A stretch of 64,000 nt of DNA from the NCBI RefSeq assembly GCF_035994185.1, contig NZ_CP108538.1, forward strand, positions 4,193,501-4,257,500, written 5' to 3'. The translations under genes and the position numbers were made by a program. The notes beneath the pieces were generated by a model, which saw only the letters and a list, made by a program, of their open reading frames with translations, did not search any database and had not been told where the DNA came from. The stretch's first letter is position 1. Each line of letters starts with the position of its first letter. Shown here piece by piece: positions 2,524 through 21,697 of the stretch. The stretch comes from Streptomyces sp. NBC_01217. Its GTDB lineage: Bacteria; Actinomycetota; Actinomycetes; Streptomycetales; Streptomycetaceae.

Positions 2524-2865
2524 ATGAACGACACCGAGTTCCAGCGTTTCACCGACGCCGCCGCCCACTGCCAGATGTCCAACGCCGCCTTCCTTGCCTA
2601 CGCCGTCGACAAGGCCGCACGCGACCTGCATCGCACTGCCGCCGAGATCGCCACTGAACGAGAGGTCATCAACGAGCTGTTCGCCGCCCGTCGGCACCTG
2701 GGCTGGATCCACGGCCTGTTCAACCAGGTCGCCAAGGCCCTCAACTCCGGTGCCGACGCACCCCACCTGGACGCCATGGCCCAGCGCGTCGGCAGCGCGG
2801 CCCGCCGCATGGAGGACGCCGCAGACGCCCTGCTCGCCCACCGCGACGGCGGTGCCCCGGAGTGA
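2524..2865 (+). CDS. mobC: MobC-like relaxosome accessory protein
   Basis: 113 aa from ATG 2524. The start MNDTEFQRFTDAAAHCQMSNAAFLAYAV resembles the ribbon-helix-helix part of MobC proteins, and the helical remainder (ARRHLGWIHGLFNQVAKALNSG) matches the family's second half, which binds near oriT and assists the relaxase. Coding-like sequence (AESLAKRRQRPRQPTSLKR, a basic arm typical of MobC) continues upstream in frame to a TAG at 2413-2415 without any ATG, GTG or TTG. The real start may therefore be a CTG (e.g. 2455), or the 5' end may be altered. The stop overlaps the relaxase GTG by 4 bp, so the two are translationally coupled. Confidence 0.75.
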   Translation: MNDTEFQRFTDAAAHCQMSNAAFLAYAVDKAARDLHRTAAEIATEREVINELFAARRHLGWIHGLFNQVAKALNSGADAPHLDAMAQRVGSAARRMEDAADALLAHRDGGAPE

Positions 2866-4574
2866 TCCCCAGCATCCACGACCGCGGCAGCGAGACGATC
2901 GGCCTGATCCGCTACCTCTACGGCCCCGGCACCAAAGAGGAACACACCGACCCGCACCTGGTGGCCGCCTTCGACCCGCTCACCCCCGACCCCGGCCGCG
3001 ACCCGAAGGCCACCTACGAACACCTCCAGCGCCTCCTCGACCAGCCCGTCGCTGCCCTGGCCACCGGCAAGCGTCCCGAGAAACACGTATGGCACCTGTC
3101 CGTGCGGGCCGCCCCCGAGGACCCGATCCTGTCCGACGAGGACTGGGCAACCATCGCCCGCCGCATGGTCGCCGCCACCGGCATCGCCCCCGACGGCGAC
3201 GAAACCGCCTGCCGGTGGGCGGCAGTCCGGCACGCCGCCGACCACATCCACATCATCGCCACCCTCGTACGCGACGACGGCCGCCGGCCCCGCCTGCACA
3301 ACGAGGCCCGCCGCGCCCAGACCGAATGCCGCCGCATCGAAGCCGACTACGGACTGCGCCGCGTCCCGCCCGGGGACGGCACCGCTGCCAAGCCCCCCAC
3401 CAGCGCCGAATGCCACAAAGCCGAACGCGAGGGCAGGGAGCAACCGGCACGCGAGGAACTGCGCGAAACCGTACGGCGGGCAGTGGCCGGAGCCATGAGC
3501 GAGGAGGAGTTCTTCGACCGACTGGCCGCCGCCGGCCTGCTGATCCGCAAGCGCGTCGCACCCTCCGGCGACCTGCTCGGCTACAAGGTCGCCCTCCCGG
3601 ACAACCGCAACGGCGAGAAAGAGCCCGTGTTCTACGCGGGCTCCACCCTCTCCCCCGACCTGTCCCTGCCCCGCATCCGCAAACGCTTCACCGCCGGCAT
3701 CCCAAACCAGGGCACGGACGCACCCTCCGTCGAAGCCCCGAGTGGCCCGGCGACAGCGCGGCGTCGGACGGCCACGGCTGCGTGGCAGGCAATGCTGGTC
3801 ATCGACCATGGTGAGGACGCCCAGGTGGCCGCGCACATCGCGGCGGCCGGGGAGGTCCTGGACGCGCTCGCCAAGACCTCCGCCGCCCACACCCGCGCCG
3901 AACTGCGTGAGGCGGCCTTTGCGTTCGAGCGGGCGACGCGCTCCCACATCAAGGCAGAACGCGGACACGACCACGCCCTACGCCAGGCCGCCCGCGACCT
4001 CGTCTACAGCGGCCCCGCCCTGGGCCGCGGAGAAGACGGCGCCACCACCGCGATGGCGATCGACATGGCGTTCTTCCTCATCACCGCCGCCGCCCACTGG
4101 CACGCGAAGAAGAACCACGCCCAACAGGCCGCCGCAGCCCGCCAAGCCGCCGAACACCTGCGCGCCGCCTACCAGGCAGCCGCCGACGTCCCATTGGGCG
4201 TGCTGTACCGGCGAGGTCGGCGCCTGCCCCAGCCCCTGCGCCAGAAGCAGGCCGCCCACCTGCGCCAGACAGTGCCGGAGCTGGCCGAACAGATCCTCGC
4301 CGAAGCGGGCTGGCACGCCCTGGCCGCCACACTCGCCGACGCCGAGACCACCGGACACGACCCGGCCGCACTCCTGGCAGAAGCTGCCGGACGGCAGGAG
4401 TTGGGCACCGCCGATTCCATCAGTGACGTGCTGGTGTGGCGGCTGCGCCGCATGGCCGACCTGCCCGCCGACGCGACCGCGATGCCCGAGCCCACCACCA
4501 CCGCGACAACGGGCAACCGACGTGCCGCCGGCCTCTCGCCGAACCGAGACAATCGCCCCCGTAAGACAAGGTGA
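2862..4574 (+). CDS. MobA/VirD2-family relaxase
   Basis: 570 aa, GTG start overlapping the mobC stop (GTGA). Relaxases nick one strand at oriT through a tyrosine and pilot it during conjugation. The N-terminal domain has LIRYLYGPG (candidate nucleophilic tyrosines Y18/Y20), EHTDPHLVA, and the metal-binding HUH-type motif RHAADHIHII with H124, H128 and H130. The remaining ~350 residues are helical and Ala/Arg-rich with no recognisable helicase or primase motif. With mobC and the upstream hairpins it forms a mobilization module. No integrase, TraB-type translocase or type IV coupling protein is in view, so the element is mobilizable or a remnant rather than self-transmissible as seen here. Confidence 0.85.
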   Translation: MIPSIHDRGSETIGLIRYLYGPGTKEEHTDPHLVAAFDPLTPDPGRDPKATYEHLQRLLDQPVAALATGKRPEKHVWHLSVRAAPEDPILSDEDWATIARRMVAATGIAPDGDETACRWAAVRHAADHIHIIATLVRDDGRRPRLHNEARRAQTECRRIEADYGLRRVPPGDGTAAKPPTSAECHKAEREGREQPAREELRETVRRAVAGAMSEEEFFDRLAAAGLLIRKRVAPSGDLLGYKVALPDNRNGEKEPVFYAGSTLSPDLSLPRIRKRFTAGIPNQGTDAPSVEAPSGPATARRRTATAAWQAMLVIDHGEDAQVAAHIAAAGEVLDALAKTSAAHTRAELREAAFAFERATRSHIKAERGHDHALRQAARDLVYSGPALGRGEDGATTAMAIDMAFFLITAAAHWHAKKNHAQQAAAARQAAEHLRAAYQAAADVPLGVLYRRGRRLPQPLRQKQAAHLRQTVPELAEQILAEAGWHALAATLADAETTGHDPAALLAEAAGRQELGTADSISDVLVWRLRRMADLPADATAMPEPTTTATTGNRRAAGLSPNRDNRPRKTR

Positions 4575-4700: not shown

Positions 4701-5696
4701 CTACAGACGCATCTCCTCCTCCATAGCGCGAGCGATCTCTGGCCATGGAGCGCGCAGGACGCCGACGAGCGACCAGTAGCCGTACATCTCCCGGACCAGG
4801 GCTCCGACGCCAAGGCGGGCGGTGTCTCGGTCGATTGAGCCAATGACCCGCCGGGTGATTCCCCCTGCTCCCCGGGCAGCTGGGCTGATCCCGTGCCCAA
4901 GTAGGAGCGTGGCGGTACGGATGGCATCCAGCGTGGTCGGCGGCGCAGCCTCGGCGAAGCTGGCGTAGATCAGTTGATGCCAGCACTTCTGGGTGCGAGC
5001 CCACGCCAAGCGTTCGAGTCCGCTGCCGACGTCCACGGCCAAGTGGCCTGGGTGTTCGGTGTTCCATAGGAGGACGATGTCGCCAAGGGTGCGGTCCAGG
5101 TGCTGGAAACGCAGTGTGATGCCCTCGACCTGCCGCCGACGCCAGGAGGACAACTTGCCCTTGATGCCCAAGTGCCGGGCATGAAAGCCGAGTTGGGAGA
5201 GCACTGTCAGCCACCCGTCGAGGATGGCACCGTACTCCTGCAGGTTGTCTATCCGTTGAACCCGGGAGATGTTGACGAAGGAGGTCAGGAAGCCGTCCCT
5301 CAGGTGGCCGGTGGCGTCCCTCTGACCCGTGAAGCGGACGACTGGTTGGGGCAGGAACCCGCTTCGGTATGTACGCAGTTGGCCGTCTTTGAGCAGTGGG
5401 TCGAGTGCCTGGACCGCGGAGATGGTCAGTTCGGTCTCCCGGCCCCAGCGGAGGGGAAGGCAGGCGTCACGTGCGACCCCGTCTCGCGCGAAACCAGTCT
5501 CCAGCGAGTCAAGCAGTTCACTCCATGCGAGCGGTCTGCGCGGTGGTCTGTAGGGAGAACCACGGTTCGGGTGGCGGATCTCGATGTGGCGGCCGTCGGC
5601 CGTGAATTCCCAGTGCGGGCTTAACGCGGCACGCAGCACGCCCGGTATCTGCTGGGCCAATTCATCCCCAAACGTTTGTTTCACCCGGGTCAGCAC
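4701..5696 (-). CDS. Free-standing alanyl-tRNA synthetase-like catalytic core
   Basis: 331 aa. Class II synthetase features of the AlaRS type are visible: QPVVRFTGQRD (117-127) and LTSFVNIS (137-144) in the place of the AlaRS motif-2 region, RTLGDIVLLWN before the third motif, and VGSGLERLAWA (223-233), close to the AlaRS motif 3. The tRNA-recognition, editing (HxxxH) and C-Ala domains of full AlaRS (~870 aa) are missing, so it is not a housekeeping enzyme. It may activate an amino acid for a carrier, small molecule or tRNA. It is the last gene of the minus-strand operon; its ATG overlaps the glycosyltransferase stop by 7 bp. The second synthetase gene of the operon (SerRS) makes an aminoacyl-dependent pathway plausible, but substrate is unknown. 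Confidence 0.6.
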   Translation of the reverse strand: MLTRVKQTFGDELAQQIPGVLRAALSPHWEFTADGRHIEIRHPNRGSPYRPPRRPLAWSELLDSLETGFARDGVARDACLPLRWGRETELTISAVQALDPLLKDGQLRTYRSGFLPQPVVRFTGQRDATGHLRDGFLTSFVNISRVQRIDNLQEYGAILDGWLTVLSQLGFHARHLGIKGKLSSWRRRQVEGITLRFQHLDRTLGDIVLLWNTEHPGHLAVDVGSGLERLAWARTQKCWHQLIYASFAEAAPPTTLDAIRTATLLLGHGISPAARGAGGITRRVIGSIDRDTARLGVGALVREMYGYWSLVGVLRAPWPEIARAMEEEMRL

Positions 5697-6712
5697 GGTC
5701 GTGTCGCCATCGTCTGGAAGTGACGGACCGGGTCGAAGCGCTGCATTCCGACAGCCTGGACCCGGCGGTGGTCGAGGTCTTCCGCCTGCTGTATTGAGTC
5801 GACGAGCCTCCGCGCCGCTGTCTCATCGTCCTCTCGGGGGTCGGCGACGGCGACCGCGCCGGTCTCGTTACACAAGGCTGCCTGGGCACATGTCCCTTCC
5901 CGCCAGGTGAGAGCAGCCATAGGAGTGCCGGCGCGGAGGGACTCACCGAAGACAGCGGCACCGGCCTCTACGTACCCACGGGCGTACGTGTAGACGAAGA
6001 CCGACGCCTCGGCGATCGCGGCTGTCTTGGCGGTGCCCCCGAGTTCGCCGACCCACTCCACGTGTTCGGCGCCGAAGAGGTCCTCGTGGCGCCGCACATA
6101 TTCCTTGTCGAAGACCGGACCGACGATTCGGATCCGGCGGCCAAGAATCTGTGCCGCCCGCACGGCGATGTGTGGGACCTTGTCCTCGTCGATCCGGCCG
6201 AGCCAGACGAGGTCGTTACCAGCGGTGGCTGGAGGCTCCTCCTCGTGGAGGCCGAGGTGAACGGCGAGCTCAGGGATCGGCCGGTGGTCGGCGTAGCGCT
6301 CGGTCATCTCGGGCGAGTAGCAGTAGAGCCGCGACCGTCGGCCGTCGAAGGCGGTGGCGGTGTGCTGGAAAACCGGTGAGTGTTGGAACGTGGCGACGTC
6401 GCAGTCCAGCTCGCTCCATGTGCGGGTCCAGGCCGGAAGCGACGGGTACTCGTGGCCCACGACCATGAGGTCGTAGCCGCTGCCGCGCAGCTCCCGCTCT
6501 GCGAGCGTTCCGGGTGTGATGTCCTCCAGGCGAACCGGCTTTCGGACCCAGTCGTTCTCCAGGTCCCTGAGCCAGCCCGGCCCAAGAAGGTGTACGTCGG
6601 CGCCTGCGGCTCGGGCGCCTACGGCGACCGCCCACAGCCATCGTTCGATCCCGCCGTAGCCAGCAGGTGGAAAGGCGTAGCTACCAGGGAAGTCGCAGAC
6701 GCCGACGAGCAC
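5690..6712 (-). CDS. GT4-family glycosyltransferase
   Basis: 340 aa from GTG 6712, one base after the serS stop; an earlier start would lie inside serS. The N-terminal PPAGYGGIERWLWAVAVG and the middle LVWLGRIDEDKVPHIAVRAAQ with RIVGPV are the acceptor-side and nucleotide-sugar-side signatures of GT4 (GT-B fold) enzymes, and the late AGTPMAALTWREG is the usual donor-binding region with its acidic residue. It transfers a sugar from an activated donor to an unknown acceptor. No signal peptide or membrane segment, so cytoplasmic. Tight coupling with serS and the AlaRS-like gene suggests all three act in one pathway, perhaps glycosylating an aminoacylated product. Confidence 0.75.
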   Translation of the reverse strand: MLVGVCDFPGSYAFPPAGYGGIERWLWAVAVGARAAGADVHLLGPGWLRDLENDWVRKPVRLEDITPGTLAERELRGSGYDLMVVGHEYPSLPAWTRTWSELDCDVATFQHSPVFQHTATAFDGRRSRLYCYSPEMTERYADHRPIPELAVHLGLHEEEPPATAGNDLVWLGRIDEDKVPHIAVRAAQILGRRIRIVGPVFDKEYVRRHEDLFGAEHVEWVGELGGTAKTAAIAEASVFVYTYARGYVEAGAAVFGESLRAGTPMAALTWREGTCAQAALCNETGAVAVADPREDDETAARRLVDSIQQAEDLDHRRVQAVGMQRFDPVRHFQTMATRPC

Positions 6713-6713
6713 G

Positions 6714-8006
6714 TTATGCCTCCGGTGTTCCGTCCGCCGAGATACGGCGGAAGCCGAGGTACGGGACGAGCGATTCGGGCAGGACGATGGAGCCGTCCTG
6801 CTGCTGGCACTGCTCAAGGAGAGCGGCCAGGGTGCGGCCGACGGGCAGGCCGGAGCCGTTGAGGGTGGCGACGAGCTTGGGCTTGCCGTCCTCGCCGCGG
6901 GTCCGGATGTTGGCCCGGCGGGCCTGGAAGGTGCCAAAGTTGGAGACCGAGGAGATCTCGCGGTACGTGTTCTGGCTCGGGATCCAGACCTCGATGTCGT
7001 AGGTGAGCTGGGCGGAGAAGCCGGTGTCACCCGCGGCCAGCTTGACGACGCGGTAGGCGAGGCCGAGTTCCTTCAGGCACGCCTCGGCATGGCCGACCAT
7101 CGTCTCCAGCGTGGCGTCCGCATCCGCCGGGTCGACCATCTGGACGATCTCGACCTTGGCGAACTGGTGCTGGCGGATCAGGCCCCGGGTGTCGCGGCCG
7201 TACGAGCCTGCTTCGGACCGGAAGCACGGCGTGTGCGCGGTGAGCGCCAGCGGCAGCTCGGCCGCAGGGATGATCTCGTCGGCGTAGAGGTTGGTCAGTG
7301 GCACCTCGGCCGTGGGGATCAGGAACAGCTCGCGGTCGGCGACGCCGGTCTTGAACAGGTCCTCCTCGAACTTCGGCAACTGCCCCGTGCCGGTCATCGT
7401 CTTGCGGGTGACCAGGTACGGGACCGCGTGCTCGACGTACCCGTGCCGACGGGTGTGCAGGTCGAGGAAGAGCGTGGCCAGGGCACGCTCCAGTGCTGCT
7501 CCGGCGCCGCGCGAGACCGCGAAGCGCGGGCCGGACAGCTTCGTCGCCCGAGCGAAGTCGAGGATGCCGGTGGCCTCGCCAAGGTCGACGTGGTCCTTCG
7601 GTTCGAACGGGAAGGCCGGCGGAGTGCCGACCCGGCGGATCTCGATCGCGAACTCCTCGGAGTCGCCGTCCGGGGCCGCGTCGTCCGGCAGGTTCGGGAT
7701 GCTGAGGAGGAGATCGCGGAGCTGTTCCTCGACCTCCACCTGCCCGGCCTCGATCTCCCGGATCTGGTCCTTCAGCTCGCGGGCGCGCTCCTTCAGTTTG
7801 GAGATGTCGCCGCCCTGCTTGGCCGTCTGCTGGACCTCACTCGCCACCCGCTTGGACTCAGCCCGCAGCTCGTCGGCCGAGCGGATGCTCTGGTTGCGCC
7901 GAGACTGGAGGGACTCCAGCTCGGACAGGTCCAGAGAGTAACCGCGACGGGCGAGCCGACGAACCGCTTCGGCACCCATTTCAATTAGGGCGCGGGCATC
8001 ATGCAT
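6714..8006 (-). CDS. serS: Seryl-tRNA synthetase, probable second copy
   Basis: 430 aa from ATG 8006, the standard bacterial SerRS length; longer readings run into the preceding gene. It charges tRNA-Ser with serine. The N-terminal coiled-coil arm (about 25-100, rich in Lys/Glu/Arg, ending IPNLPDDAAPDG) is followed by the class II core: FLIPTAEVPLTN, motif 2 CFRSEAGSYGRDTRGL with RQHQFAKVE, and motif 3 LNGSGLPVGRTLAALLEQ. All look intact, so it should be active. Its ATG overlaps the histidine-phosphatase stop by 8 bp. A housekeeping serS is expected elsewhere in a Streptomyces chromosome; a serS inside a biosynthetic-looking operon recalls those giving self-resistance (albomycin) or supplying seryl-tRNA to a pathway (valanimycin). 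Confidence 0.9.
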   Translation of the reverse strand: MHDARALIEMGAEAVRRLARRGYSLDLSELESLQSRRNQSIRSADELRAESKRVASEVQQTAKQGGDISKLKERARELKDQIREIEAGQVEVEEQLRDLLLSIPNLPDDAAPDGDSEEFAIEIRRVGTPPAFPFEPKDHVDLGEATGILDFARATKLSGPRFAVSRGAGAALERALATLFLDLHTRRHGYVEHAVPYLVTRKTMTGTGQLPKFEEDLFKTGVADRELFLIPTAEVPLTNLYADEIIPAAELPLALTAHTPCFRSEAGSYGRDTRGLIRQHQFAKVEIVQMVDPADADATLETMVGHAEACLKELGLAYRVVKLAAGDTGFSAQLTYDIEVWIPSQNTYREISSVSNFGTFQARRANIRTRGEDGKPKLVATLNGSGLPVGRTLAALLEQCQQQDGSIVLPESLVPYLGFRRISADGTPEA

Positions 8007-8709
8007 GAGGAAGATCCTTTTGATCCGGCTGGTGGGATACGGAATCGACGGTAGCAACCGCCGAGCCCTCACCGATCCGGAATATGTCCGCGCCCCCACG
8101 GTCGGCGCGACCTCCCGGAACGTCTCTGTCGAGATCACTCATCAGCGTCGTGACCCAGTCCAGCAGCTCGTCATCTGGTATGGCGATCGGCTCGACGTAC
8201 GGCGCCTCGGGGAAGAAGAGCGGTATGGCCTCCTTCGGAGATCGGCTCTGATGCCAGAGGAGCACGGAGGCAAGAAGGCCGTGGCCTACGAGAACGCGGG
8301 GACCAGGGCGCTCCAGGGCGGCGAGCAGTCCGGTGAGCATCCTCCGGATGCCGTCGCGCTGGGACTCGGTGCCACCCGTCGGCCGCTCGTTCGGGCCCTG
8401 GCCGTCGAGCCAGACCGCGTACTCCAGAAATGGGCTGCCCTCAAACTCTCCGTAGTCGAGTTCGTTCAGGCGAGGGTCGATGACCAGCTCCGCCGCCGGC
8501 ACTCCCATCAGCAGAGAAGCTGTCTGCTGTGCACGTGGGAACTCGCTGGTCAGCCACGTCCGCACGGTGTGGAGGGGGAGGGTGGACCAGCCCAGGCTCA
8601 GCGAATGCCGCCCCTCTTCGGTCAGGTGGATGGGTTGGGACGGGTCGCCGTTGACGAGGTATCGCTTGCTGTAGTTCGTCTGTCCGTGGCGGAGAACGTA
8701 GGTGGTCAC
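7999..8709 (-). CDS. Histidine phosphatase (phosphoglycerate-mutase-like)
   Basis: 236 aa from GTG 8709, which overlaps the upstream kinase stop (GTGA). The N-terminal YVLRHGQTNYSKR carries the RHG catalytic motif with the phosphorylated histidine. EFPRAQQTA, the acidic NELDYGEFEG and the second catalytic histidine in RVLVGHGLLASV complete the active site. The branch includes cofactor-dependent mutases and many small-molecule phosphatases; in this operon with two small-molecule kinases, a phosphatase removing a phosphate added earlier is more likely than glycolysis. No export signal. Confidence 0.8.
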   Translation of the reverse strand: MTTYVLRHGQTNYSKRYLVNGDPSQPIHLTEEGRHSLSLGWSTLPLHTVRTWLTSEFPRAQQTASLLMGVPAAELVIDPRLNELDYGEFEGSPFLEYAVWLDGQGPNERPTGGTESQRDGIRRMLTGLLAALERPGPRVLVGHGLLASVLLWHQSRSPKEAIPLFFPEAPYVEPIAIPDDELLDWVTTLMSDLDRDVPGGRADRGGADIFRIGEGSAVATVDSVSHQPDQKDLPHA

Positions 8710-9632
8710 GAGCCGCTCCTCGGGGTCGACGCGGAGAGGCCGGCGAGCACTTCCGCCATCTGCGGCGCTCTCGGGTCTCTGGCCTCCAGGTAGTAAAGGA
8801 GTCCGTCGAGGGCCAGTGCTCTGCACCACGGTGCGAGCACAGGGATGGGGATCCGAGAGATCCGAGCGGCAGCGGCCAGCCGTCCGTTGGTCCCGTGCCC
8901 AAGGTCGTAATAGACGGTCCAGAAGGCCCAGTCGAATGCCGCGTCGCCCAGCATGGGCAGCGGATCGAGCAGGCGAGGGTGCCCCAGCCGGTCGAATGGC
9001 ACGTTCTCCCGGTACAGGTCCGCGTGCAGGACAGTCGTCCTGTCTCCGTCTTCCTGCAGTCCGGCGAGCGCCGGGAGCGCGGCATCGACGACGAGATGCC
9101 GTGCGCCGAGGTCGAGCGTCTCCATCCGTCGCCGGATCCGCGGCAGCATTTCCGTACTGAGGTGGTCGGCGAGCAGCGGGAAGCTGTTCGGTCGTCTTCG
9201 GCGCCGGCCAAGAGCGTGCAGCCCCTGAAGGGCGGCAGCCACCATCTGAACCTCGCGCTCTGGCCGCTCAGCGCCACCAGGGCGCCCTCCCACCAGCTCC
9301 AGGGCGGCCACCGCCTGGTCGTCAGCGGCCTCGACGATGTCCACCGTCGGTCCGCCTGCCCACAGCCGCAGCGCACTGACTTCGTGGCGATACCGGGCAG
9401 GGTCGGTCCATGCCTTGAGGAGCAGCGGACGCCCGTCAAGGGCGATCGCTGTCGCGATCACCGAGGCGTGTCCGGCGTCGTAGTAGTCGCCGAGGGACAA
9501 CTTCCAGCGTTCGGCGGCCTGTTCCAGCAGGTCCGGTGCTGTGTCCAGCCACGCCTGGGCTTCCGGCCCGTAGTGCGCGAGTAGTCGCTGCCTGCACCCT
9601 GCGGGAACCTCTCCGAGCGTCCGCGTCGCCAT
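8706..9632 (-). CDS. Aminoglycoside/hydroxyurea-type phosphotransferase
   Basis: 308 aa. The fold is that of APH kinases: an ATP-binding N-lobe with ASVIATAIALDGRPLLLKAW (Lys for ATP), AALELVGG as hinge, and the catalytic VLHADLYRENV (His-x-Asp-x4-Asn) followed by LDPLPMLGDAAFDWAFW for magnesium. The pattern is closest to the streptomycin 6-kinase/hydroxyurea kinase family (APH_6_hur). Such enzymes inactivate antibiotics or phosphorylate biosynthetic intermediates. It sits between the methionine adenosyltransferase (1-bp overlap, TGATG) and the histidine phosphatase, so a phosphorylate/dephosphorylate pair as in aminoglycoside-type self-protection is conceivable. Confidence 0.75.
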   Translation of the reverse strand: MATRTLGEVPAGCRQRLLAHYGPEAQAWLDTAPDLLEQAAERWKLSLGDYYDAGHASVIATAIALDGRPLLLKAWTDPARYRHEVSALRLWAGGPTVDIVEAADDQAVAALELVGGRPGGAERPEREVQMVAAALQGLHALGRRRRRPNSFPLLADHLSTEMLPRIRRRMETLDLGARHLVVDAALPALAGLQEDGDRTTVLHADLYRENVPFDRLGHPRLLDPLPMLGDAAFDWAFWTVYYDLGHGTNGRLAAAARISRIPIPVLAPWCRALALDGLLYYLEARDPRAPQMAEVLAGLSASTPRSGS

Positions 9633-10882
9633 CAGCTCAGCACGATCCCGTCGGAAACCAGCTCGTCCGTCAGGGCCAGGAACTCGCCGAGAGCCTCGGC
9701 GACGAGGGCCTGCACCTTGTCCACCTCGGCGTCGGGGGACGACAGGCGGACGAGGATGCGCCAGGGCTGATCGAGCCGCTGCCCGGTCGTGCTCACCAGG
9801 TGAACCTCGGCGTGCCCCTCGGTCGCCTCGTGGAGCCGGTGGGCGAGACGCTGCGCGGCCACGTTGTACAGCTTGCCGACGTGGTAGACGGGGTTCTTGC
9901 CGTTGGCGCCTTCAAGGTTCATCGGCCGCAGCGGTGTGATCAGCCCATTGACCCGGTTTCCTCGCCCTACGACGCCTTCGTCACCCGACTCGATCGAGCT
10001 GCCGGTGTACGTCAGGTACAGCTCGTCCTTCTCCGGTACGTCGCGGGCATTCAGCCGGAAGCGCGCCTCCGCTTCGGGCAGCCGGAGGGCGGCGAGGCGG
10101 TGGCACTCGGCGAGAACGGTCTCCGCGTTGCGGACGTACGCCGCCCGGCTTGCGACATGGCGCGACTTCTGGGGAACGCACAACACGATGTCGGCCTGAG
10201 CGCCGTCCCAGTAGCCCATGAGTTTGACGTCCGAACCGCACCAGGCGTGGGCGAGCGTGAACTCGCTCTTCCCGGAGAAGTGGTCCACCAGTTCCCGTAC
10301 GAACGACTCGAAGGGGTTCTCCGGCGCCCAGCCGGTGCCGAGGGACGTGTCGTTAGAGAGCCGTACTCGCCGCTCGCGGAGATCCTCGACGGAGCGCGGG
10401 TTGAACCAGCGGGTGCGGTCGGGCACCCCGCCGCCGGTGATGACGGCACCCGGGCTCGAGTTGCTGGTGATGTTGAAGACGATGTCGAGGTGCTCCGAGA
10501 CCTCGGGCAGTCGCTCGGCGAAGAACGCCCGGACCTCGGTCTCCACTATGTCCGTGACCGGTATCGGCTCGCCGCCGCACATGGGCGCGGCCCGCCCGTT
10601 GACCAGGACCCGCACCGGCGACGTCATCCGGCCGGCGCCGTACCGCACCTCGCTGGCTCCACCGAGGAGGGCGAGCTTGTCGAAATTGTGGTGCAGTACG
10701 GCGCCGAAGTGCTGAACGGTGTAGCGGCTGTAGGCGCGGGACAACCGCTCGGCGAGATGGTCGGCCAGGGTGTCCGGATGGCCGAGGCCCTTGCGTTCCA
10801 CGATGGTCGTCGCGTCCGGCTGAGCCATGCCGGTGTCGATGACGATGTGGCTGTTGTCGATGATCGTGCTCGTACGAGGCAT
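9632..10882 (-). CDS. Archaeal-type methionine adenosyltransferase
   Basis: 416 aa from ATG 10882, which has GGGAG 6 nt upstream (a GTG directly before it is the alternative). It makes S-adenosylmethionine from methionine and ATP. The sequence is the archaeal class, not bacterial MetK: VERKGLGHPDTLADHLAE near the N-terminus, HNFDKLALLGG, NITSNSSPGAVITGG, and GRGNRVNGLITPLRPMN followed by EGANGKNPVYHVGKLY. Length (~400) fits the archaeal family. A second AdoMet synthetase in the operon head implies a pathway with heavy AdoMet use, or one where the enzyme uses a methionine or nucleotide analogue. No methyltransferase is in the operon, which is odd. Confidence 0.85.
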   Translation of the reverse strand: MPRTSTIIDNSHIVIDTGMAQPDATTIVERKGLGHPDTLADHLAERLSRAYSRYTVQHFGAVLHHNFDKLALLGGASEVRYGAGRMTSPVRVLVNGRAAPMCGGEPIPVTDIVETEVRAFFAERLPEVSEHLDIVFNITSNSSPGAVITGGGVPDRTRWFNPRSVEDLRERRVRLSNDTSLGTGWAPENPFESFVRELVDHFSGKSEFTLAHAWCGSDVKLMGYWDGAQADIVLCVPQKSRHVASRAAYVRNAETVLAECHRLAALRLPEAEARFRLNARDVPEKDELYLTYTGSSIESGDEGVVGRGNRVNGLITPLRPMNLEGANGKNPVYHVGKLYNVAAQRLAHRLHEATEGHAEVHLVSTTGQRLDQPWRILVRLSSPDAEVDKVQALVAEALGEFLALTDELVSDGIVLS

Positions 10883-10962
10883 CACGAACTCCCGTTCAGG
10901 GGTGGGTAGAAGGGGATGAGCGCAGGCGTCAGCACGCCTGGACGAGCGGTGGAGCGGAGGAG

Positions 10963-11856
10963 TCAGCGCGGAACGCCGGCAGCGCGGAGGAGCGCGACTG
11001 ACTGAGCGAGTGACCGGTACGCGGACGCAGCCTGTTCCTCGGCAGCGAGTCGATAGACGTCGTGAGCGGTGATGAGGTCGATGTCTTGCGTCCGACGGCG
11101 ATCGAGCCAGAGGAGCAGGCGCCAGGCCAGGACAGGGCCACTGAACGGCAATCGGGTCAGGAGATCGACCGGGATGCGTCCGGGCGGCACACCCCCGTAC
11201 AGCAGGTCGCGTACGAGGTGGAAGACCACGTCGGTGTAGTCGACGACGGCCGGTCCGCAGGCACTCGCCTCCCAGTCGACGAGGTACAGGCGATCGCCGT
11301 CGACGAGGAGGTGCTCGGGCTTGAGGTCACCATGCAGGTGAACAACCGGATGGGAATCGATGGGTTGGAGGGCCTCACTCAGCACCACCCACCAGGGCAG
11401 CCACCAGCAGCGAGGAGAGAACTGATCCAGCAGGAACTGGTGTGCGGAAACGCCACTGGCTCGCCGTGCTTCCCAGCCGGAACCGGGCGTAATGCCGGCA
11501 ACAGGCCGGTGCAGCCTGCCGCCCACAGCCTCGACATGACCGATGTACTCCTCAAGCGCTGTGTGCGTGCCCACCGAGCACGGCGTCCCATCCACGGCCC
11601 GGAATGCCGTCCAAGAGCCGGGCTCGTCGTTTCCCGTGGCCAGGATGGCCGGGACCGAGATACCCCACAGGGCAGCGCGCTCGACGGTCGCAACCTCACG
11701 TCGGCGCCGGCCCTCGGGGTCGATGCCCACGTAGATCTTCAGCAAGGCGCTGCCGTCCGTGGCGAAGCTCGTTCTGGAGTACGGCTTGAGAGCTGCCGGG
11801 CCGAATGGGCCGAGACCCTGCTCGGTCCACGGCTCCGCCGACTTCGTGCTGCGCAC
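10963..11856 (-). CDS. APH-family phosphotransferase
   Basis: 297 aa taking GTG 11856, which has GGAGG about 8 nt upstream; GTG 11865 in frame would add three residues but leaves no spacing. N-lobe lysine in DGSALLKIYVGID, hinge near AFRAVDG, catalytic loop VVHLHGDLKPEHLLVDGD (HGD-x4-H) and LVDWEASACG for the metal. This is a kinase of the aminoglycoside/choline type, distinct from the other phosphotransferase in the operon. First gene of the minus-strand operon, about 80 bp before the adenosyltransferase, and divergent from the XRE regulator. Substrate unknown. Confidence 0.7.
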   Translation of the reverse strand: MRSTKSAEPWTEQGLGPFGPAALKPYSRTSFATDGSALLKIYVGIDPEGRRRREVATVERAALWGISVPAILATGNDEPGSWTAFRAVDGTPCSVGTHTALEEYIGHVEAVGGRLHRPVAGITPGSGWEARRASGVSAHQFLLDQFSPRCWWLPWWVVLSEALQPIDSHPVVHLHGDLKPEHLLVDGDRLYLVDWEASACGPAVVDYTDVVFHLVRDLLYGGVPPGRIPVDLLTRLPFSGPVLAWRLLLWLDRRRTQDIDLITAHDVYRLAAEEQAASAYRSLAQSVALLRAAGVPR

Positions 11857-11977
11857 CCTCCACACCTCCAGTCCGTGTCAGCGAGCCGTGCCCCACTCCC
11901 ATGCGGGAAGTAGGACCGATAGCCAAAGCCGCCCGAGGCGGCGGGAGTTGACCACATTGCCCGGCGGCCTTTTCGAT

Positions 11978-11992
11978 CTACTGCGACAGTAG
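11978..11992. promoter_or_regulatory. Palindromic candidate operator CTACTG-N3-CAGTAG
   Basis: The 15-bp inverted repeat CTACTGCGACAGTAG is the only clear symmetric element in the 206-bp gap between the divergent APH gene and the XRE regulator gene. Position and size fit a dimeric helix-turn-helix regulator controlling both directions; that it is bound by the adjacent XRE protein is inferred. Confidence 0.5.
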
Positions 11993-12062
11993 GTACGGCA
12001 CCCCGCAGCACCCCGGAAAATCCTTCCGGGGTCGATTCCGGCCACGAGGTGATGCTCAGGAC

Positions 12063-13292
12063 ATGCGAGGGATGACAGAAAACCTGACCATCGGCGAGCG
12101 CGTCGCCTGGTACCGGCGCCGACGCGGCCTTTCCCAAGAAGTCCTGGCCGGCCTTGTCGGACGGACCACGGACTGGCTGTGCAAAGCGGAGAACAATCGG
12201 ATCGAGCTCGACCGGCTCTCGGTGATCACCTCACTCGCCGGGGCCCTCGACGTCTCCCTCGGAGACCTGCTTGCCGAACCGACCCTCATGGAGTGGTCGA
12301 ACGACAGCGGCCGCCGCACGGTCCCCGCCCTGCGTGAAGCCCTCATGGACTACAAGCAGCTCACGCCGCTACTGGGGCCTGCGACCGATAATGAACCACC
12401 GGCCCTGATGGACCTTCGGGCCAACGTGGAGGAGATCCTCGACGCCTATCAGGCGTCCCGCTACGGCTTCGCCACGCGACGCCTTCCCCTCGTACTGCCC
12501 GATGCCCTCGCCGCAGCCCGCACGTACTCGGGGCGCAATGGGGAAGAAGCTCATGCCCTGCTCGCCCTGACCTATCAAGGCGCGGCCATGGTGCTCGGCA
12601 AGGTCGGGGAGTCGGAGTTGGCATGGATCGCAGCCGACCGCGGCCTGGCGGCCGCGCAGCACAGCGGCCAGAGTGCGGTGACGGGCTCGCTCTTCCGGGC
12701 GGTCGCACACTGCCTGCTGGCCACCGGGCGCTTCGTCCCGGCGGTCCAGCTGGTGAACGATGCCGCGGCCGTGATGCAGCCCGGCTTGGCCACCGCGAAC
12801 GACGAGTACCTCTCGGTCTACGGCACCCTCTTCCTCGCCGGCGCGATGGCGGCAGCCCGCGCGGAGGACCGGGCGACGACACAGACCTTCCTTCGCGAAG
12901 CCGACGAAGCCGCACAGCGGTTGGGCGCCGACGCCAACCACCTGTGGACTGCCTTCGGCCCGACCAACGTGGCCATCCACTGCGTCGCCACCGCCGGAGA
13001 GCTCGGAGACATCCAGATAGCCGCCGACCTTGGACAACGCATCGACACCAGCAGCTTGCCGGTGGAACGCCGCGTGAGGCACAACCTGGAAGTCGCCCGA
13101 GCGCTCAGCGCCTGGAACCGAACCGACGAAGCCCTGGCCACCCTGCTGGACGCCGAGCAGGCCGCCCCCGAGCAGGTGCGCCACCACTACCTGAGCCGAG
13201 AACTGGTCATCGGCTGGATCCGGAGTACCCGAGGCCGCCCGTCCCAGCCCGTGGCAGACCTGGCGCGCAGGCTCGGCGTCGTCGGCGGTTAG
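12063..13292 (+). CDS. XRE-family regulator with TPR-like sensor domain
   Basis: 409 aa. Residues ~10-65 are an XRE helix-turn-helix (IGERVAWYRRRRGLSQEVLAGLVGRT, then LCKAENNRIELDRLSVITSLAGAL). The rest is a run of Ala/Leu-rich helical pairs (EEAHALLALTYQGAAMVLGKVG, AWIAADRGLAAAQHSG and so on) resembling the TPR arrays of RRNPP-like or Streptomyces pathway regulators that sense a small ligand. ATG 12063 is taken, with ATG 12072 possible. Divergent from the operon at 4701-11856 across a palindromic site, and 10 bp ahead of the NUDIX gene, so it is the likely pathway switch. Confidence 0.75.
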   Translation: MRGMTENLTIGERVAWYRRRRGLSQEVLAGLVGRTTDWLCKAENNRIELDRLSVITSLAGALDVSLGDLLAEPTLMEWSNDSGRRTVPALREALMDYKQLTPLLGPATDNEPPALMDLRANVEEILDAYQASRYGFATRRLPLVLPDALAAARTYSGRNGEEAHALLALTYQGAAMVLGKVGESELAWIAADRGLAAAQHSGQSAVTGSLFRAVAHCLLATGRFVPAVQLVNDAAAVMQPGLATANDEYLSVYGTLFLAGAMAAARAEDRATTQTFLREADEAAQRLGADANHLWTAFGPTNVAIHCVATAGELGDIQIAADLGQRIDTSSLPVERRVRHNLEVARALSAWNRTDEALATLLDAEQAAPEQVRHHYLSRELVIGWIRSTRGRPSQPVADLARRLGVVGG

Positions 13293-13302
13293 AGTCCGTC
13301 CC

Positions 13303-13785
13303 GTGAGCGAGAACGAGCACGAAGCGAAGATGGCCCACCCGCGCATGGCAGCCGGCGCGCTGTTCTTCGACGATGCTGATCGAGTCCTGCTCGTCGAACC
13401 CTCTTACAAGGACTACCGCGACATCCCTGGCGGATACGTCGAGCACGGGGAGTCTCCCCGACAAGCGTGTGTGCGCGAAGTCCAGGAGGAACTGGGCATC
13501 AAGCCGGACATCGGCCGCCTGCTCGTCGTGGACTGGGCACCGAATCCGGGAGAGGGAGACAAGGTCCTCTACCTTTTCGACGGCGGCCGTCTCAGCGCGG
13601 ACCAGCGCCAGCAGATCGCGCTGCAAGCCGACGAGCTCCGCAGCTACGACTTCCATCACGCCGAGCGACTGCCAGAGCTCACGATTCCCCGCCTCGTACG
13701 ACGAATCAACGCTGGCATCCAGGCGCGCGCAGACGGCCTGACCGCCTATCTGGAACATGGGGTGTCACCAGAAACACGGGCTTGA
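13303..13785 (+). CDS. NUDIX hydrolase
   Basis: 160 aa from GTG 13303. The complete Nudix box is present at about 44-66: G-YVEHG-E, seven residues, then REVQEELGI, giving G-x5-E-x7-RE-x2-EE-x-G. Family members cleave X-linked nucleoside diphosphates (NDP-sugars, NADH, oxidised NTPs). It lies 10 bp after the XRE regulator gene, so they form one transcript. A house-cleaning or nucleotide-activated intermediate role in the neighbouring operon is plausible; the substrate cannot be read. The C-terminal ~50 residues are helical with no extra domain. Confidence 0.85.
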   Translation: MSENEHEAKMAHPRMAAGALFFDDADRVLLVEPSYKDYRDIPGGYVEHGESPRQACVREVQEELGIKPDIGRLLVVDWAPNPGEGDKVLYLFDGGRLSADQRQQIALQADELRSYDFHHAERLPELTIPRLVRRINAGIQARADGLTAYLEHGVSPETRA

Positions 13786-14483: not shown

Positions 14484-17069
14484 GTGCACGCTCAGGAGAC
14501 CACATTCAACGAACTCGTCCAGGGCGAGAAGCAGTACCAAGTGCCGCTCTATCAGCGCACTTACAGCTGGCAGCGGGACGAGCTGCGGCAACTCTGGGAC
14601 GACGTTCAGGAGTTGGTCGAGGAGCAGTTGGAAGGACGGCCCCCCGCGGCGCACTTCCTCGGCTCCGTGGTGCTGGCCCCGGGCCGGATCACCGCCGGCG
14701 GCATGCAGCGCTGGCTCGTGGTCGATGGCCAGCAGCGGCTCACCACTCTCATGCTCGCCTTCACGGCGTTGCGCGACCGCCACCGGGAACGCGGCGCGGA
14801 GCAGAAGGCCGAGCGCATCCACGACCTTGTGCTCGTCAACAAGTACCGAAGCGGCGACGACCACTACCGGCTCCTGCCCACGCAGGCGGACCGCGACGCC
14901 TTCACCGCCTGTGTCGAGAGTTCGCCAAGGGCCGGCGGCCCCGGCAACGTGGGTGCCGCCTACCGGTTCTTCCTGGGCGCCCTCGCAGAGGGCGAGGAAA
15001 ATGCTGGTGAGACGTGGACGGACGCGGTGGAGACCGTGCTGAGCGGTCTGCTGTCGATCGTGGAGATCACCGCGTCGGAGGGTGACAACGTCTACCGGAT
15101 CTTCGAGTCGATCAACAACACTGGGGTCGGACTCAGCCAGAGCGACCTGCTGCGCAACTACCTCTTCATGTGCCTGCCGACCCGAGGTGAGTCCGTCTAC
15201 CAGAGTCTCTGGCTGCCCATGCAGGAACGGCTAGGCCCCGCCAACCTCGAACTCCTCGTCTGGCTCGACCTGGTGGTGGCCGGCAACAGCCGGGCGAAGC
15301 AGAGCGAGATCTACCGGGACCAGAAGAAACGCCTGGAGCCTCTGAGCTCCGACGAAGCGGCCCTGGAGGCCGAGATCGCCTCCCTGGCCCGCCGGGCGGA
15401 ACGTCTGATGCGGATCCTGGAACCCGAGAGGGAGGCCGACCCTGAGCTGCGCGAAGTGCTGGAGAGGCTCTCCCGGTGGGGCGGTCAGACCCACTACCCG
15501 CTGGCACTTCATCTGCTCGGCCGCGTGGACGATGGGCAGGCCACACCCCACCAGGCCGCCCGGGCACTGGCGTACGCCGAGAGTTACATGGTGCGGCGCC
15601 TGTTCACCGGACACTCCACCACGGGCAGCAATCGGGTGTTCATGGAGATGGCCAAGGAGATGGAGAAGGACGACGACCCGGCCGAGGCCGTAAGCCGCTT
15701 CCTGTCGAAGAGCAAGACGGGTGCCCGTGTCTGGCCCGACGACGACGCCGTCCGCGAGGCGATCCGCACCCGGCCGTTCTACAAGGCGGGCCGCAGCAAC
15801 CAGCGGTTCCAGGTGCTGCGGAGGCTGGAGGAGAGCTACAGAGCGAGCGAACCGGTCGACTTCGCCAAGGCACGCCTGACCGTCGAGCACGTGCTGCCAC
15901 AGAGCCCCGCACACCAGTGGCTGGACCTGCTGGCCGAGGAGACCGAGGACGGACAGGGCGCCGAGGAACTCCACGCCCTACTCGTCCACACGCTTGGCAA
16001 CCTGACTCTTTCCGCTGACAACGCGAAGCTCTCGAACCATCCGTTCCGCCGCAAGCAGGAGATCCTGGACTTCAGCTCCCTGCGGATGAACCAGGAGATC
16101 GCAGGGCGGGAACGTTGGGGGAAGGCGGAAATCCTCGACCGCGGCGCCGCCCTCGCCGACCGGGTGGTGCGGCTGTGGCCCGGGCCCGTCGCGGGCACGG
16201 TCCCGGTGGACGACGAGTGGTCCGGATGGAAGGAGCTGCGGGCCGCGCTTCTCGCCATGCCAGCCGGGACGTGGACGACGTACGGCGATGTCGCCGCGCT
16301 CATCGGCACCCACGCCGTCCCCGTCGGCCAGCATCTGGCGTCCAAGGTGGGCCTGCACGGCGCCTACCGGGTGCTGACGGCGGACGGCCGCGTCTCGGCG
16401 GGCTTCAGGTGGCCGGACGGCCAGGACCTCGGTGATGTGCGAACCCGTCTGGAGGCCGAGGGAGTTTCCTTCGACGATGCGGGCCGGGCCCGCCGATCCC
16501 ACCGGCTGACCACCTCCGACCTGGCGGCCCTGCTGGGCAAGGATGTCGCCGATGAGGCCGAGCCGTCACCACGGGCTGACGGCGATGAGCAGCAGTCGGC
16601 GACCAGCCGGTTCGAAACGCAACTGCGCGACAACCAGACCGAGGAGACCGTCGACGGCGTCCTGGACGCCCTGCGCTTCTGGGAGCAGCAGGGCGGTCAT
16701 CTCGCCTACGGCCGAGCGAGCGAGACCAGTTGCTTCCCCACAGTGAGTTTCGGCAACGCCCCCGCCTCCCGAGAGCTGTGGCCCCTGGCCCTCTACCCGG
16801 TCTCCGGCACCGTAGAGGTCGTCTTCCAGTATCTGAAACGGCGCCCACCGTTCGACGACGAGCCTCTGCGGCGCGAGCTGATGAACCGCCTGAACAAGAT
16901 CGAGGGCATCGACCTGGCCGAGGCAAAACTGGACCTGCGCCCGTCCTTCGCGGTGGAGGTCTTCGCCGCGCACAGCGCGGAGATCTGCGCGGTGTTGGAG
17001 TGGTTCGCGCATACGGTGGCTCTCGCGGAGGCCCGCCGTATGGTGGACAAGGACCCCGACAGTCCCTGA
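14484..17069 (+). CDS. GmrSD-like DUF262/DUF1524 nuclease fused to ATL domain
   Basis: 861 aa, GTG start with GGGGGA upstream. Domain 1 (DUF262, GmrS-like NTPase): YQRTYSW (23-29), VVDGQQRLTTLM (79-90), IFESINNTGVGLSQSDLLRNY (206-226 region). Domain 2 (DUF1524, GmrD-like His-Me nuclease): TVEHVLPQS (466-474) and TLGNLTLSADNAKLSN (503-518). Domain 3 (~580-670) resembles O6-alkylguanine transferases/ATL proteins: MPAGTWTTYGDVAALIG (592-608) and GAYRVL (626-631) where the active enzymes have PCHRV, so the acceptor cysteine is Ala627. A C-terminal ~160-residue domain is unassigned. GmrSD enzymes cut modified phage DNA; an ATL module that flips out modified bases without repairing them would be a plausible reader. 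Convergent with the drmB-drmC operon. Confidence 0.8.
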   Translation: MHAQETTFNELVQGEKQYQVPLYQRTYSWQRDELRQLWDDVQELVEEQLEGRPPAAHFLGSVVLAPGRITAGGMQRWLVVDGQQRLTTLMLAFTALRDRHRERGAEQKAERIHDLVLVNKYRSGDDHYRLLPTQADRDAFTACVESSPRAGGPGNVGAAYRFFLGALAEGEENAGETWTDAVETVLSGLLSIVEITASEGDNVYRIFESINNTGVGLSQSDLLRNYLFMCLPTRGESVYQSLWLPMQERLGPANLELLVWLDLVVAGNSRAKQSEIYRDQKKRLEPLSSDEAALEAEIASLARRAERLMRILEPEREADPELREVLERLSRWGGQTHYPLALHLLGRVDDGQATPHQAARALAYAESYMVRRLFTGHSTTGSNRVFMEMAKEMEKDDDPAEAVSRFLSKSKTGARVWPDDDAVREAIRTRPFYKAGRSNQRFQVLRRLEESYRASEPVDFAKARLTVEHVLPQSPAHQWLDLLAEETEDGQGAEELHALLVHTLGNLTLSADNAKLSNHPFRRKQEILDFSSLRMNQEIAGRERWGKAEILDRGAALADRVVRLWPGPVAGTVPVDDEWSGWKELRAALLAMPAGTWTTYGDVAALIGTHAVPVGQHLASKVGLHGAYRVLTADGRVSAGFRWPDGQDLGDVRTRLEAEGVSFDDAGRARRSHRLTTSDLAALLGKDVADEAEPSPRADGDEQQSATSRFETQLRDNQTEETVDGVLDALRFWEQQGGHLAYGRASETSCFPTVSFGNAPASRELWPLALYPVSGTVEVVFQYLKRRPPFDDEPLRRELMNRLNKIEGIDLAEAKLDLRPSFAVEVFAAHSAEICAVLEWFAHTVALAEARRMVDKDPDSP

Positions 17070-17174: not shown

Positions 17175-19325
17175 TCACGGGCGCGAGTTGACGACCGGCG
17201 CCAGGAATGGACTCGGCGCCCCGTGCCAGGACACCCGCAGCGCCTCGCGCGCCCGTGTGCACGCGACGAAGAGCAGGTTCAGCTCACCGTTCAGGTCCTC
17301 CTGATGCTGCTGGGCGTCGACGTCGACCGCGGTGACGGCCGACTTCATCGGCACGGTGCCGTCGTTCACTCCGGCCACGGCGACGCAGCGGAACTCCAAC
17401 CCCTTCATCCGGTGCATGGTGCCGATCCGGACACCGGGGCCACCATGCCCGGCACCGAGCACGCACGCGGCGAGGCCAGCCTGCTCCAGAGCCTGGGCGA
17501 TGTCCCGTCCCAGTTGGGCGAAGCGCACCGCCACCCCGATGTCCTCCGCCCGCACCCCTGCGCCGGTCCAGTCCCGCACCCGGGCCACCAGTGCCTCAAT
17601 CTCCTCGGGTTTGGTGGCATACCCGGCCGTCTCCGGCCGCTCTCCGTGCATGGTGGAGCGGTATCCAGCCAGCGTCTCGTTCCCGCCGTCCATGTCGTCC
17701 GGCTCCTCACCGGTCAGCAGCGAGGCCGACCAGGCCAGGATCTCCTGTGTGGTGCGGTAGTTGATCCGCAGTCGGTGCGAGCGGCCGACGACCTGGACGC
17801 CGAGCGAGCGCAGCGACACCCGGTTCCCGTAGATCCGCTGGTAGGTGTCCCCGGCGAGGAACAGATCGTCCTGACCGTGAGCGACCAGGGCCCGCAGGAA
17901 CCGCCACTGCGCGGGGTGCAAGTCTTGCGCCTCGTCGATCACGACATGGTGGTACAACCGCTGCTCCCGGCCGTCCAAGACACGTGCCGCCTCCGCACAC
18001 ACCTGAAGGAACGTCCACTCGCCGGCCTGGCGCAATTGCTCCTCGAAAGCGGAGACAGCCCGCCACACCTGAAGGCGTTTCAGCGGTGGGAGCGCGGTGC
18101 CGCGGCCGGTGCGCGGCGCCTTCAGGTACTCCTCCGGTTCGGTCAGGGCCTGCGCGAGGACGATCTGACGCCACTCCTGGTCGAGGAAGACGTCCGTGAA
18201 GTCGATCCCCAGCCGACGCGCGATGCGCGTCCAGCGGGCGGTGATCTCCTTCTGGTCGAAGACCAGTTTCAGCGGGGCGCCGCCGCGCTCCGCCCGTACG
18301 ATCTCGTTGGCCAGGGCGTCGACGTTGACTACCCGGATCCTCGCCCGGACCTCCTCTTCCTCGACCAGCAGCGTCAGACAGCGCTCTAGTTCGGCCGCGA
18401 GATCCCTGGTGAAAGTGGTGAGCAGGACGCTCCCGTCGGGGGCGCCCTCGGGCAGTTGCCGCGCCAGGTGGTACGCCCGGTGCAGGGCGACCACCGTCTT
18501 CCCCGTGCCGGGCCCGCCTGTGACGCGGGCCGGCCCGGCGTAGCCCTCGTGGTACGCCACCCGGTACTGGCTCGGGTGCAGGAAGACCCGCCAGGCGTCG
18601 AACGGCCGCTCCAGGATTCCCTGCAGTTCGACGGGGCCCGACACGAGCGCGACCCGGCCGCGGGAACGGGCCATCGCGGTGCCCAGCTCGTCACCGTCGT
18701 CGGCCGCAGGGGTCTGCGCGGCGGTCCGGGCGTACGCCTGCACCAGTTCCCGATCGATCGCCTCGGGCGTCATGCCGGTCGCGAGCCCCAGCAGGACGTC
18801 GTACTGATGCTCCGGCAGCACCTTGTGTAGTGCCTCCAGATGATCCTCGTCCGGGATCAGCCGGATGATCGGCAGGATCTCCTCGTCCACACCGAGGCTG
18901 CGCAGCACCTTGTCCGGGTAGTCGGAGTGGGGAAACAGGCGGGTCGGTTCCTCGGCGGCCAGCGCACGCAGCCCCGCCGTGGCCCGTTCCAGGGCCACGT
19001 CGTTGCGTATCTCGATGCCTTGCGTCGCCTCGTTCACCGACGCACGGTGCTTGGCGGCCCAGTCGTTGGCCTTGTCATGGGGGAGCACCTTGAGCAGCAG
19101 GTAGCTGTCGCCCGACTCGCCCTTGAGGACGACGCCGCGCCAGAAGCCGGTGATGCGGATGGTCCGCAGCCGTGGATCTTTCTGGTGACTCAGCTTCTCC
19201 AGGTGCAGCCCAGTGTGCGTCGCTGCCGCGAACTTCTCGAACACCTCGAAGACCCGCTTCTGGACGGGTTTCTCCAACGCCGCGAACTCCAGCAGGAAGT
19301 CCCGGTGCATCCCCAGCGTCGCCAT
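17175..19325 (-). CDS. UvrD/Rep helicase with N-terminal RelE-like domain
   Basis: 716 aa; GGAGGGG lies 7 nt before ATG 19325. Residues ~5-100 read as a RelE/ParE-like fold (FAALEKPVQKRVFEVFEKF, LRTIRITGFWRGVVLKG, YLLLKVLPHDKANDWAAKH). The rest is a superfamily 1 helicase: Walker A GGPGTGKT (270-277), Walker B VIDEAQD (462-468), GDTYQRIYG (492-500), INYRTT (521-526), IGTMHRMKGLEF (634-645) and FVACTRAREAL (686-696). All motor motifs are intact. The RelE-like part may be a ribosome- or nucleic-acid-binding module rather than an active toxin. It is the last gene of the minus-strand operon with drmB-drmC, suggesting DNA unwinding or degradation during defence. Confidence 0.8.
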   Translation of the reverse strand: MATLGMHRDFLLEFAALEKPVQKRVFEVFEKFAAATHTGLHLEKLSHQKDPRLRTIRITGFWRGVVLKGESGDSYLLLKVLPHDKANDWAAKHRASVNEATQGIEIRNDVALERATAGLRALAAEEPTRLFPHSDYPDKVLRSLGVDEEILPIIRLIPDEDHLEALHKVLPEHQYDVLLGLATGMTPEAIDRELVQAYARTAAQTPAADDGDELGTAMARSRGRVALVSGPVELQGILERPFDAWRVFLHPSQYRVAYHEGYAGPARVTGGPGTGKTVVALHRAYHLARQLPEGAPDGSVLLTTFTRDLAAELERCLTLLVEEEEVRARIRVVNVDALANEIVRAERGGAPLKLVFDQKEITARWTRIARRLGIDFTDVFLDQEWRQIVLAQALTEPEEYLKAPRTGRGTALPPLKRLQVWRAVSAFEEQLRQAGEWTFLQVCAEAARVLDGREQRLYHHVVIDEAQDLHPAQWRFLRALVAHGQDDLFLAGDTYQRIYGNRVSLRSLGVQVVGRSHRLRINYRTTQEILAWSASLLTGEEPDDMDGGNETLAGYRSTMHGERPETAGYATKPEEIEALVARVRDWTGAGVRAEDIGVAVRFAQLGRDIAQALEQAGLAACVLGAGHGGPGVRIGTMHRMKGLEFRCVAVAGVNDGTVPMKSAVTAVDVDAQQHQEDLNGELNLLFVACTRAREALRVSWHGAPSPFLAPVVNSRP

Positions 19326-21684: not shown

Positions 21685-21697
21685 CGGGTCGATCCGC

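Follow-up and report, generated by a model that had tools for sequence, protein, structure and literature searches.

A conserved actinobacterial operon linking a second seryl-tRNA synthetase, an AlaRS-like protein and a relative of archaeal MATs

The window analysed here, a 64,000-nucleotide stretch of the Streptomyces sp. NBC_01217 genome, carries seven minus-strand genes in one row (4701-11865), with an XRE regulator and a NUDIX hydrolase gene divergent from them on the plus strand (Table 1). In transcript order the seven encode an APH kinase, a MAT-like protein, an APH(6)-like kinase, a histidine phosphatase, a seryl-tRNA synthetase (SerRS), a GT4 glycosyltransferase (GT) and an AlaRS-like protein, ORF331. 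A first, sequence-only reading had described these genes as tightly coupled, and recomputing coordinates, strands and junctions confirmed this. From the end of ORF331 to the first APH gene the gaps are -7, +1, -8, -4, -1 and 77 bp, so that five of the six junctions fall between -8 and +1 bp and one measures 77 bp. Pfam places five of the seven in a family above its cut-off.

Table 1. Features at the operon and its borders, in window positions.
Feature	Length	Position	Strand	Basis
MobA/VirD2-like relaxase (PF03432), adjoins operon, not a pathway member		2862..4574	+	Pfam
ORF331, AlaRS-like transferase candidate	331 aa	4701..5696	-	profile and AlphaFold model vs AlaRS
GT4-fold glycosyltransferase	340 aa	5690..6712	-	near-threshold Pfam and structure model
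Second seryl-tRNA synthetase	430 aa	6714..8006	-	TIGR00414 above cut-off
Histidine phosphatase (branch 1)	236 aa	7999..8709	-	Pfam His_Phos_1; RHG and GHG motifs
APH(6)/hydroxyurea-kinase-like small-molecule kinase	308 aa	8706..9632	-	Pfam APH_6_hur
Archaeal-type MAT relative	417 aa	9632..10885	-	Pfam PF01941
APH-family kinase, accessory	300 aa	10963..11865	-	Pfam APH
Inverted repeat CTACTGCGACAGTAG, candidate operator		11978..11992	.	sequence comparison
Inverted repeat ACCCCGGAAAATCCTTCCGGGGT		12010..12032	.	sequence comparison
XRE/HTH_31 regulator		12063..13292	+	domain profile match
NUDIX hydrolase		13303..13785	+	Pfam

Two inverted repeats lie between the divergent units, and we compared them across 17 intergenic sequences, the window's and those of 16 loci sharing this XRE type. 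CGACAGTAG, the right half of the candidate operator CTACTGCGACAGTAG, is kept in all 17, and the repeat is perfect in five. The core arms CCCCGGAA..TTCCGGGG of the second repeat are kept in 15 of the 17; both arms have changed to match in L017, and one pair is broken in L012. The divergent XRE and NUDIX genes, present in the window as first read, are exchanged at other loci for different XRE-type regulators with HAD, creatininase-like, flavoprotein or aminotransferase IV-like genes (named by reading the sequences).

We next asked how far the gene set recurs. Loci were fetched by exact peptide patterns taken from the MAT of the window, so the resulting 62 lean to close relatives, and genes were counted by profile search, with more than 70% cover in one match. 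MAT was found in 61 loci, ORF331 in 58, the APH(6)-like kinase, SerRS and GT in 57 each, the histidine phosphatase in 53 and the first APH kinase in 30. The complete six-gene core is present in 50 of 62, whereas the first APH kinase is dispensable, a point that the sequence-only reading had not anticipated. Among the 12 loci short of the full core, L060 is a different operon type. In L017, L039 and L052 the only core sequence besides MAT is part of a kinase; the profile search did not detect the APH(6)-like gene in L046 or the phosphatase in L047 and L049; and L055 is truncated at a contig end, where a SerRS fragment remains. All six genes are present in L008, L026, L034 and L038, where the best single match of one or two genes stays below 70%. 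Gene order is altered in L048, L049, L051, L054, L055 and L062.

The linked proteins also diverge together. Pairwise distances of five of them correlate with r of 0.86-0.93 (41 sequences, the window and 40 loci), and none of 500 permutations reached any of the ten values, a signal of which shared species history is a part. The sequence-only reading had named independently scattered homologues as the mark of a chance assembly; the search shows a set that is not scattered. A chance row of ORFs is ruled out by recurrence of the same set in related loci. The possible mobile context described below would leave room for unrelated genes thrown together, but because ORF331 and MAT stay linked (58 of 62) and the genes co-diverge, across genera, we regard this as vanishingly improbable. 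The earlier proposal of one pathway is thus well supported by linkage and co-divergence.

The operon occurs among soil actinobacteria, with loci in Streptomyces, Kribbella, Nocardiopsis, Nocardia, Pseudonocardiaceae and Micromonosporaceae. ORF331 was found in six of 394 genomes of the class, the window's included and one of them a fragment, indicating a patchy spread. The MAT family was found in 16 of 199 genomes of the genus and 13 of 394 of the class, counts that include other operon types; some of these genomes duplicate records that also appear as named loci, which means that the prevalence counts do not stand independently of the 62 loci. Streptomyces sp. ADI96-02 carries one copy with all core genes (L034) plus a second, truncated copy (L017).

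The surroundings suggest mobility. Of the 62 fetched loci, 17 also have a member of the relaxase family found beside the operon, in some with intervening genes, and a recombinase-like gene lies about 6 kb to the left of the operon (Phage_int_SAM_3 above its cut-off, Phage_integrase below). Left of the relaxase (L174:17226-18731), a predicted 501-aa protein has tyrosine-recombinase segments flanking a LacI-type HTH match. A repeat of the tRNA-Pro end as attachment site was sought and none was found. We rejected a phage carrier, as MAT had no match in phages at E 1e-5, and a plasmid carrier, as ORF331 had no match in plasmids at E 1e-3. The operon is probably a self-contained biosynthetic unit that moves horizontally. 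Adjoining it in the window are GmrSD-type restriction, UvrD-like helicase and PLD-domain genes (14484-17069, 17175-19325 and 20914-21987), possibly a defense island. Could the operon itself be stress or defense cargo, for example a replacement SerRS with a tRNA- or nucleotide-modifying set? The relaxase, recombinase-like, GmrSD, UvrD-like and PLD-domain genes nearby and the want of an exporter would agree with this, but PADLOC gave no match in the seven operon genes at E up to 0.001 and weak ones for XRE and NUDIX, and a GT, two kinases and a phosphatase indicate a small molecule. We give the cargo explanation little credence.

The least recognizable of the seven proteins is ORF331. The window copy has no Pfam match of its own and stays below the PF01411 cut-off; that family is matched by nine of 27 members at E up to 1 (best 0.011). 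These 27 comprise the window protein and 26 of its 56 homologues, and a profile built from them finds AlaRS among the PDB entries (best E 5e-4). The AlphaFold model matches AlaRS strongly, and the match reaches the last residue of ORF331 at about residue 418 of archaeal AlaRS. ORF331 comprises the AlaRS catalytic core and the beginning of the helical domain; the editing and C-Ala domains are absent, and 331 aa leave no room for them. Profile and model rule out a glycosyltransferase, a kinase or a novel fold.

ORF331 is a class II AlaRS catalytic core carrying both the motif-2 and the motif-3 Arg. The motif-2 Arg and the Asp, Gly, Glu and Arg of motif 3 are kept in 27 of 27 members, with the motif-3 Asp222 invariant and Asn212 in 23. 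In none of the 27 is the motif-2 position His, by one of two alignments, a result that depends on the aligner; nor is the helical-domain position that would read G3:U70 ever Asn, where the Asn of the motif is the one we take to read this pair. Judged by these residues, the motif-2 His and the Asn that reads tRNA-Ala seem to be gone from ORF331. It retains the motif-3 Asp and Arg, unlike AcmF of ascamycin synthesis (compared by description), and so may still be capable of adenylation. Other truncated AlaRS proteins of about 390-470 aa, found in many genomes of the same order (L102-L111, L113; in L113 inside a longer frame), have both motif 2 and motif 3 and were set aside as a family distinct from ORF331. 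A degenerate AlaRS-like protein of 445 aa (L112:5710-7044) adjoins an MFS transporter and an NRPS gene; it is possibly the aminoacyl transferase of another cluster.

The first reading had taken the MAT relative for an AdoMet synthase. It does match archaeal MATs across the whole chain, and we aligned it to the Thermococcus MAT (4L4Q). The structural account (PMC3853416) gives the contact residues of that enzyme, including L145, which touches the methionine side chain. Eight of nine contacts are retained in the window protein (H36, H65, N67, D156, N178, D219, Y290 and D302), among them the catalytic His H36, the ribose Asp pair D219/D302 and the adenine-stacking Tyr Y290. Aligned to L145 is R157; the loop that carries it is flexible and has an insertion next to it, so the equivalence is not certain. 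At this alignment-dependent loop position, all 57 MATs compared for this operon type (the window and 56 loci) have Arg in place of Leu. L011, L015, L041, L052 and L061 are absent from that alignment because of their length or an unusable reading, and L001 (the window's gene itself) and L060 are not counted. Of the 57, 47 have Asp at the D156 position and 10 have Glu. The window MAT also falls under all five NCBIfam MAT cut-offs (310 vs 435 and lower), while at least one other member of a 15-MAT alignment scores far better on one NCBIfam MAT model (best E 9.5e-164). If the protein were an ordinary SAM synthase, serving methylation or supplying SAM itself as the scaffold, the whole-chain match and the retained contacts would be accounted for; the Arg, the sub-threshold scores and a conserved set with no methyltransferase argue against it, and we consider it unlikely. 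The archaeal-type assignment stands, and the MAT-like protein is, on these aligned positions and scores, probably not an ordinary SAM synthase.

The remaining core proteins are more readily placed. SerRS scores 455.7 bits on TIGR00414 (cut-off 301.65); it is complete, and it is the second SerRS of the genome, sharing 42% identity with the other. The GT falls just below two Pfam cut-offs (26.3 vs 26.4 and 26.4 vs 28.5 bits), and its predicted structure has a pLDDT of 90.8. The model lies closest to soluble GT4 enzymes for sucrose, avilamycin and tetrahydrobiopterin, then to BshA, MshA and SenB; membrane-lipid and polysaccharide GT4s are likewise among the neighbours. The model fits a GT that would act on a small acceptor with a UDP-sugar. 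The GT alignment has 14 rows, with L028 and L058 left out. A phmmer search of the PDB gave no relative for either APH kinase. A reversible protecting phosphate, set by a kinase and removed by a phosphatase, is known for streptomycin, and by analogy the kinase and phosphatase pair here would fit such a role.

Starting from the directly computed gene set, linkage, ORF331 and GT folds, aligned residue changes and second SerRS, we propose a route that probably yields a small molecule to which an amino acid is attached by enzymes borrowed from protein synthesis. The MAT-like protein would join the adenosyl group of ATP to some nucleophile in place of methionine. The soluble GT4 would then attach a sugar from a UDP-sugar to the resulting nucleoside-like intermediate, which probably bears an amine. 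SerRS would make Ser-AMP or Ser-tRNA, and the AlaRS-derived protein would move the seryl group onto the intermediate's amine; a complete second SerRS beside an AlaRS-derived core that lacks the tRNA-Ala determinant is what suggests this transfer. The APH(6)-like kinase would put on a protecting phosphate and the histidine phosphatase would take it off. If the product mimics seryl-adenylate, the dedicated SerRS would also shield the cell. The conserved set contains no exporter and no obvious scaffold-building enzyme. Seryl transfer by SerRS and the AlaRS-like protein onto a glycosylated, probably nucleoside-like acceptor, with SerRS doubling as self-resistance, is our best explanation, a tentative one that we rate somewhat short of even. 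The phosphorylated, glycosylated aminoacyl metabolite of the sequence-only reading, with SerRS as donor or for self-resistance, is still the best reading and has close precedents; the metabolite itself we only infer.

The same parts could be arranged as in mycothiol synthesis, with ORF331, like MshC, itself activating an amino acid with ATP and ligating it to a glycosylated amine, and SerRS serving as resistance or spare supply. A GT4, a phosphatase and an aminoacyl-tRNA-synthetase-derived ligase do resemble the logic of mycothiol, MshA stands at ranks 24-30 of the GT's structural neighbours, and the motif-3 Asp and Arg of ORF331 are invariant. Against this, the motif-2 His is missing throughout (in one of two alignments), and the linkage of a complete SerRS at 57 of 62 loci, with the fragment in L055 besides, would be explained only as resistance. 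We judge an MshC-like ligase improbable and retain seryl transfer as the preferred reading.

MAT relatives also anchor other operons. Two on annotated plasmids (L122, L123) combine a regulator, a GT (GT2 by Pfam in L122), MAT, xylose-isomerase-like, Gfo/Idh/MocA and AAA-type proteins, a carbamoyltransferase and NUDIX; L164, L166 and L167 were grouped with L122 from MAT score and gene lengths alone. L124 has MAT, xylose-isomerase-like, NUDIX and oxidoreductase genes with a histidine phosphatase close by, and L126-L128 have isomerase-like, Gfo/Idh/MocA and MAT genes, two unknowns and an F420-ligase-like (CofE-like) gene. In L169-L171 MAT lies near a weak class I Glu/Gln-RS match (19.8, 28.8 and 23.2 bits; cut-off 23.4), with a sulfatase-family protein in both loci scanned. 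A myo-inositol-1-phosphate synthase family gene adjoins MAT in L060, L125, L163 and L165; L060 also encodes a RimK-like ATP-grasp protein, for which an inositol-trisphosphate kinase match is equally good. This grouping leaves out L161, L162 and L168. The divergent gene is annotated as a transcriptional regulator in L122, L123 and L128. Of 28 plasmid records with a MAT relative, seven regions were inspected and all seven are other operon types.

Arg in place of Leu is shared by the window's operon type and some others: the Leu145-equivalent is Arg in L122, L123, L124 and L060, Lys in L125 and Phe in L126-L128. The acyl-transfer or ligase component would differ by type: SerRS with the AlaRS-like protein in the window, and elsewhere a carbamoyltransferase, a CofE-like ligase, a class I Glu/Gln-RS-like protein or a RimK-like ATP-grasp enzyme. 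One possibility, to which we attach limited confidence, is an unrecognised, MAT-centred class of modular metabolite operons, in which a neofunctionalised, Arg-bearing MAT adenosylates a non-methionine substrate and type-specific sugar or cyclitol and acyl-transfer or ligase enzymes lead to new nucleoside-like products.

If the proposal holds, many sequenced actinobacteria carry a compact route of six genes whose product, an aminoacylated and glycosylated small molecule, perhaps targets SerRS. Such a route would introduce an AlaRS-derived transferase that has SerRS as its partner, along with a non-methionine MAT chemistry, and MAT together with an aminoacyl-tRNA-synthetase-like or other ligase would become a genome-mining handle for new natural products. 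The operon is easily missed because its key protein belongs to no Pfam family and carries the annotation hypothetical. A literature search, judged on titles and the starts of abstracts, returned no description of this cluster or gene combination.

The first reading knew of no pathway to which these genes correspond; their logic does resemble that of ascamycin AcmD/AcmF and albomycin AbmK/AbmF. In mycothiol synthesis, MshA carries out GT4 glycosylation and MshC is a class I, CysRS-derived enzyme. GT4 glycosylation and a tRNA-synthetase-derived ligase are common to both systems; the window's ligase is class II and AlaRS-derived, and comes with a complete SerRS and a MAT-like protein. MshC is described as a CysRS-like ATP-dependent ligase (PMC9437257). 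Published accounts of valanimycin synthesis describe a SerRS, VlmL, together with VlmA, a seryl transferase of the GNAT fold (PMC2922099, PMC9032320). The shared element is a dedicated SerRS that supplies serine for a small amine; no GNAT-fold transferase is found in the window operon.

Ascamycin offers a close parallel. As portrayed in the published work (PMC12945691), AcmF is a truncated AlaRS-like transferase fed by the in-cluster AlaRS AcmD, which also gives resistance, and it has lost ATP- and alanine-activation residues (N219Q and D232E). Within that description, both systems have a truncated AlaRS core without the G3:U70-reading architecture and a full-length in-cluster synthetase, there giving resistance. 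The window's partner is a SerRS, not an AlaRS; ORF331 has the motif-3 Asp where AcmF has Glu232; and no sulfamate genes were recognised in the window operon, which has MAT-like, GT and kinase genes. For albomycin, PMC9032320 describes a SerRS, AbmK, that feeds the aminoacyl-tRNA-synthetase-like condensing enzyme AbmF and also gives resistance, with a product that mimics seryl-adenylate. By that description, the likeness lies in a divergent second SerRS (42% identity to the other copy) beside an aminoacyl-tRNA-synthetase-like enzyme, whereas the PLP transaldolase, radical SAM (thionucleoside) and siderophore genes are absent from the window's seven genes. With such close precedents in ascamycin and albomycin, the operon resembles known logic: it is a real, conserved biosynthetic-type operon that follows that logic with a new combination of parts.
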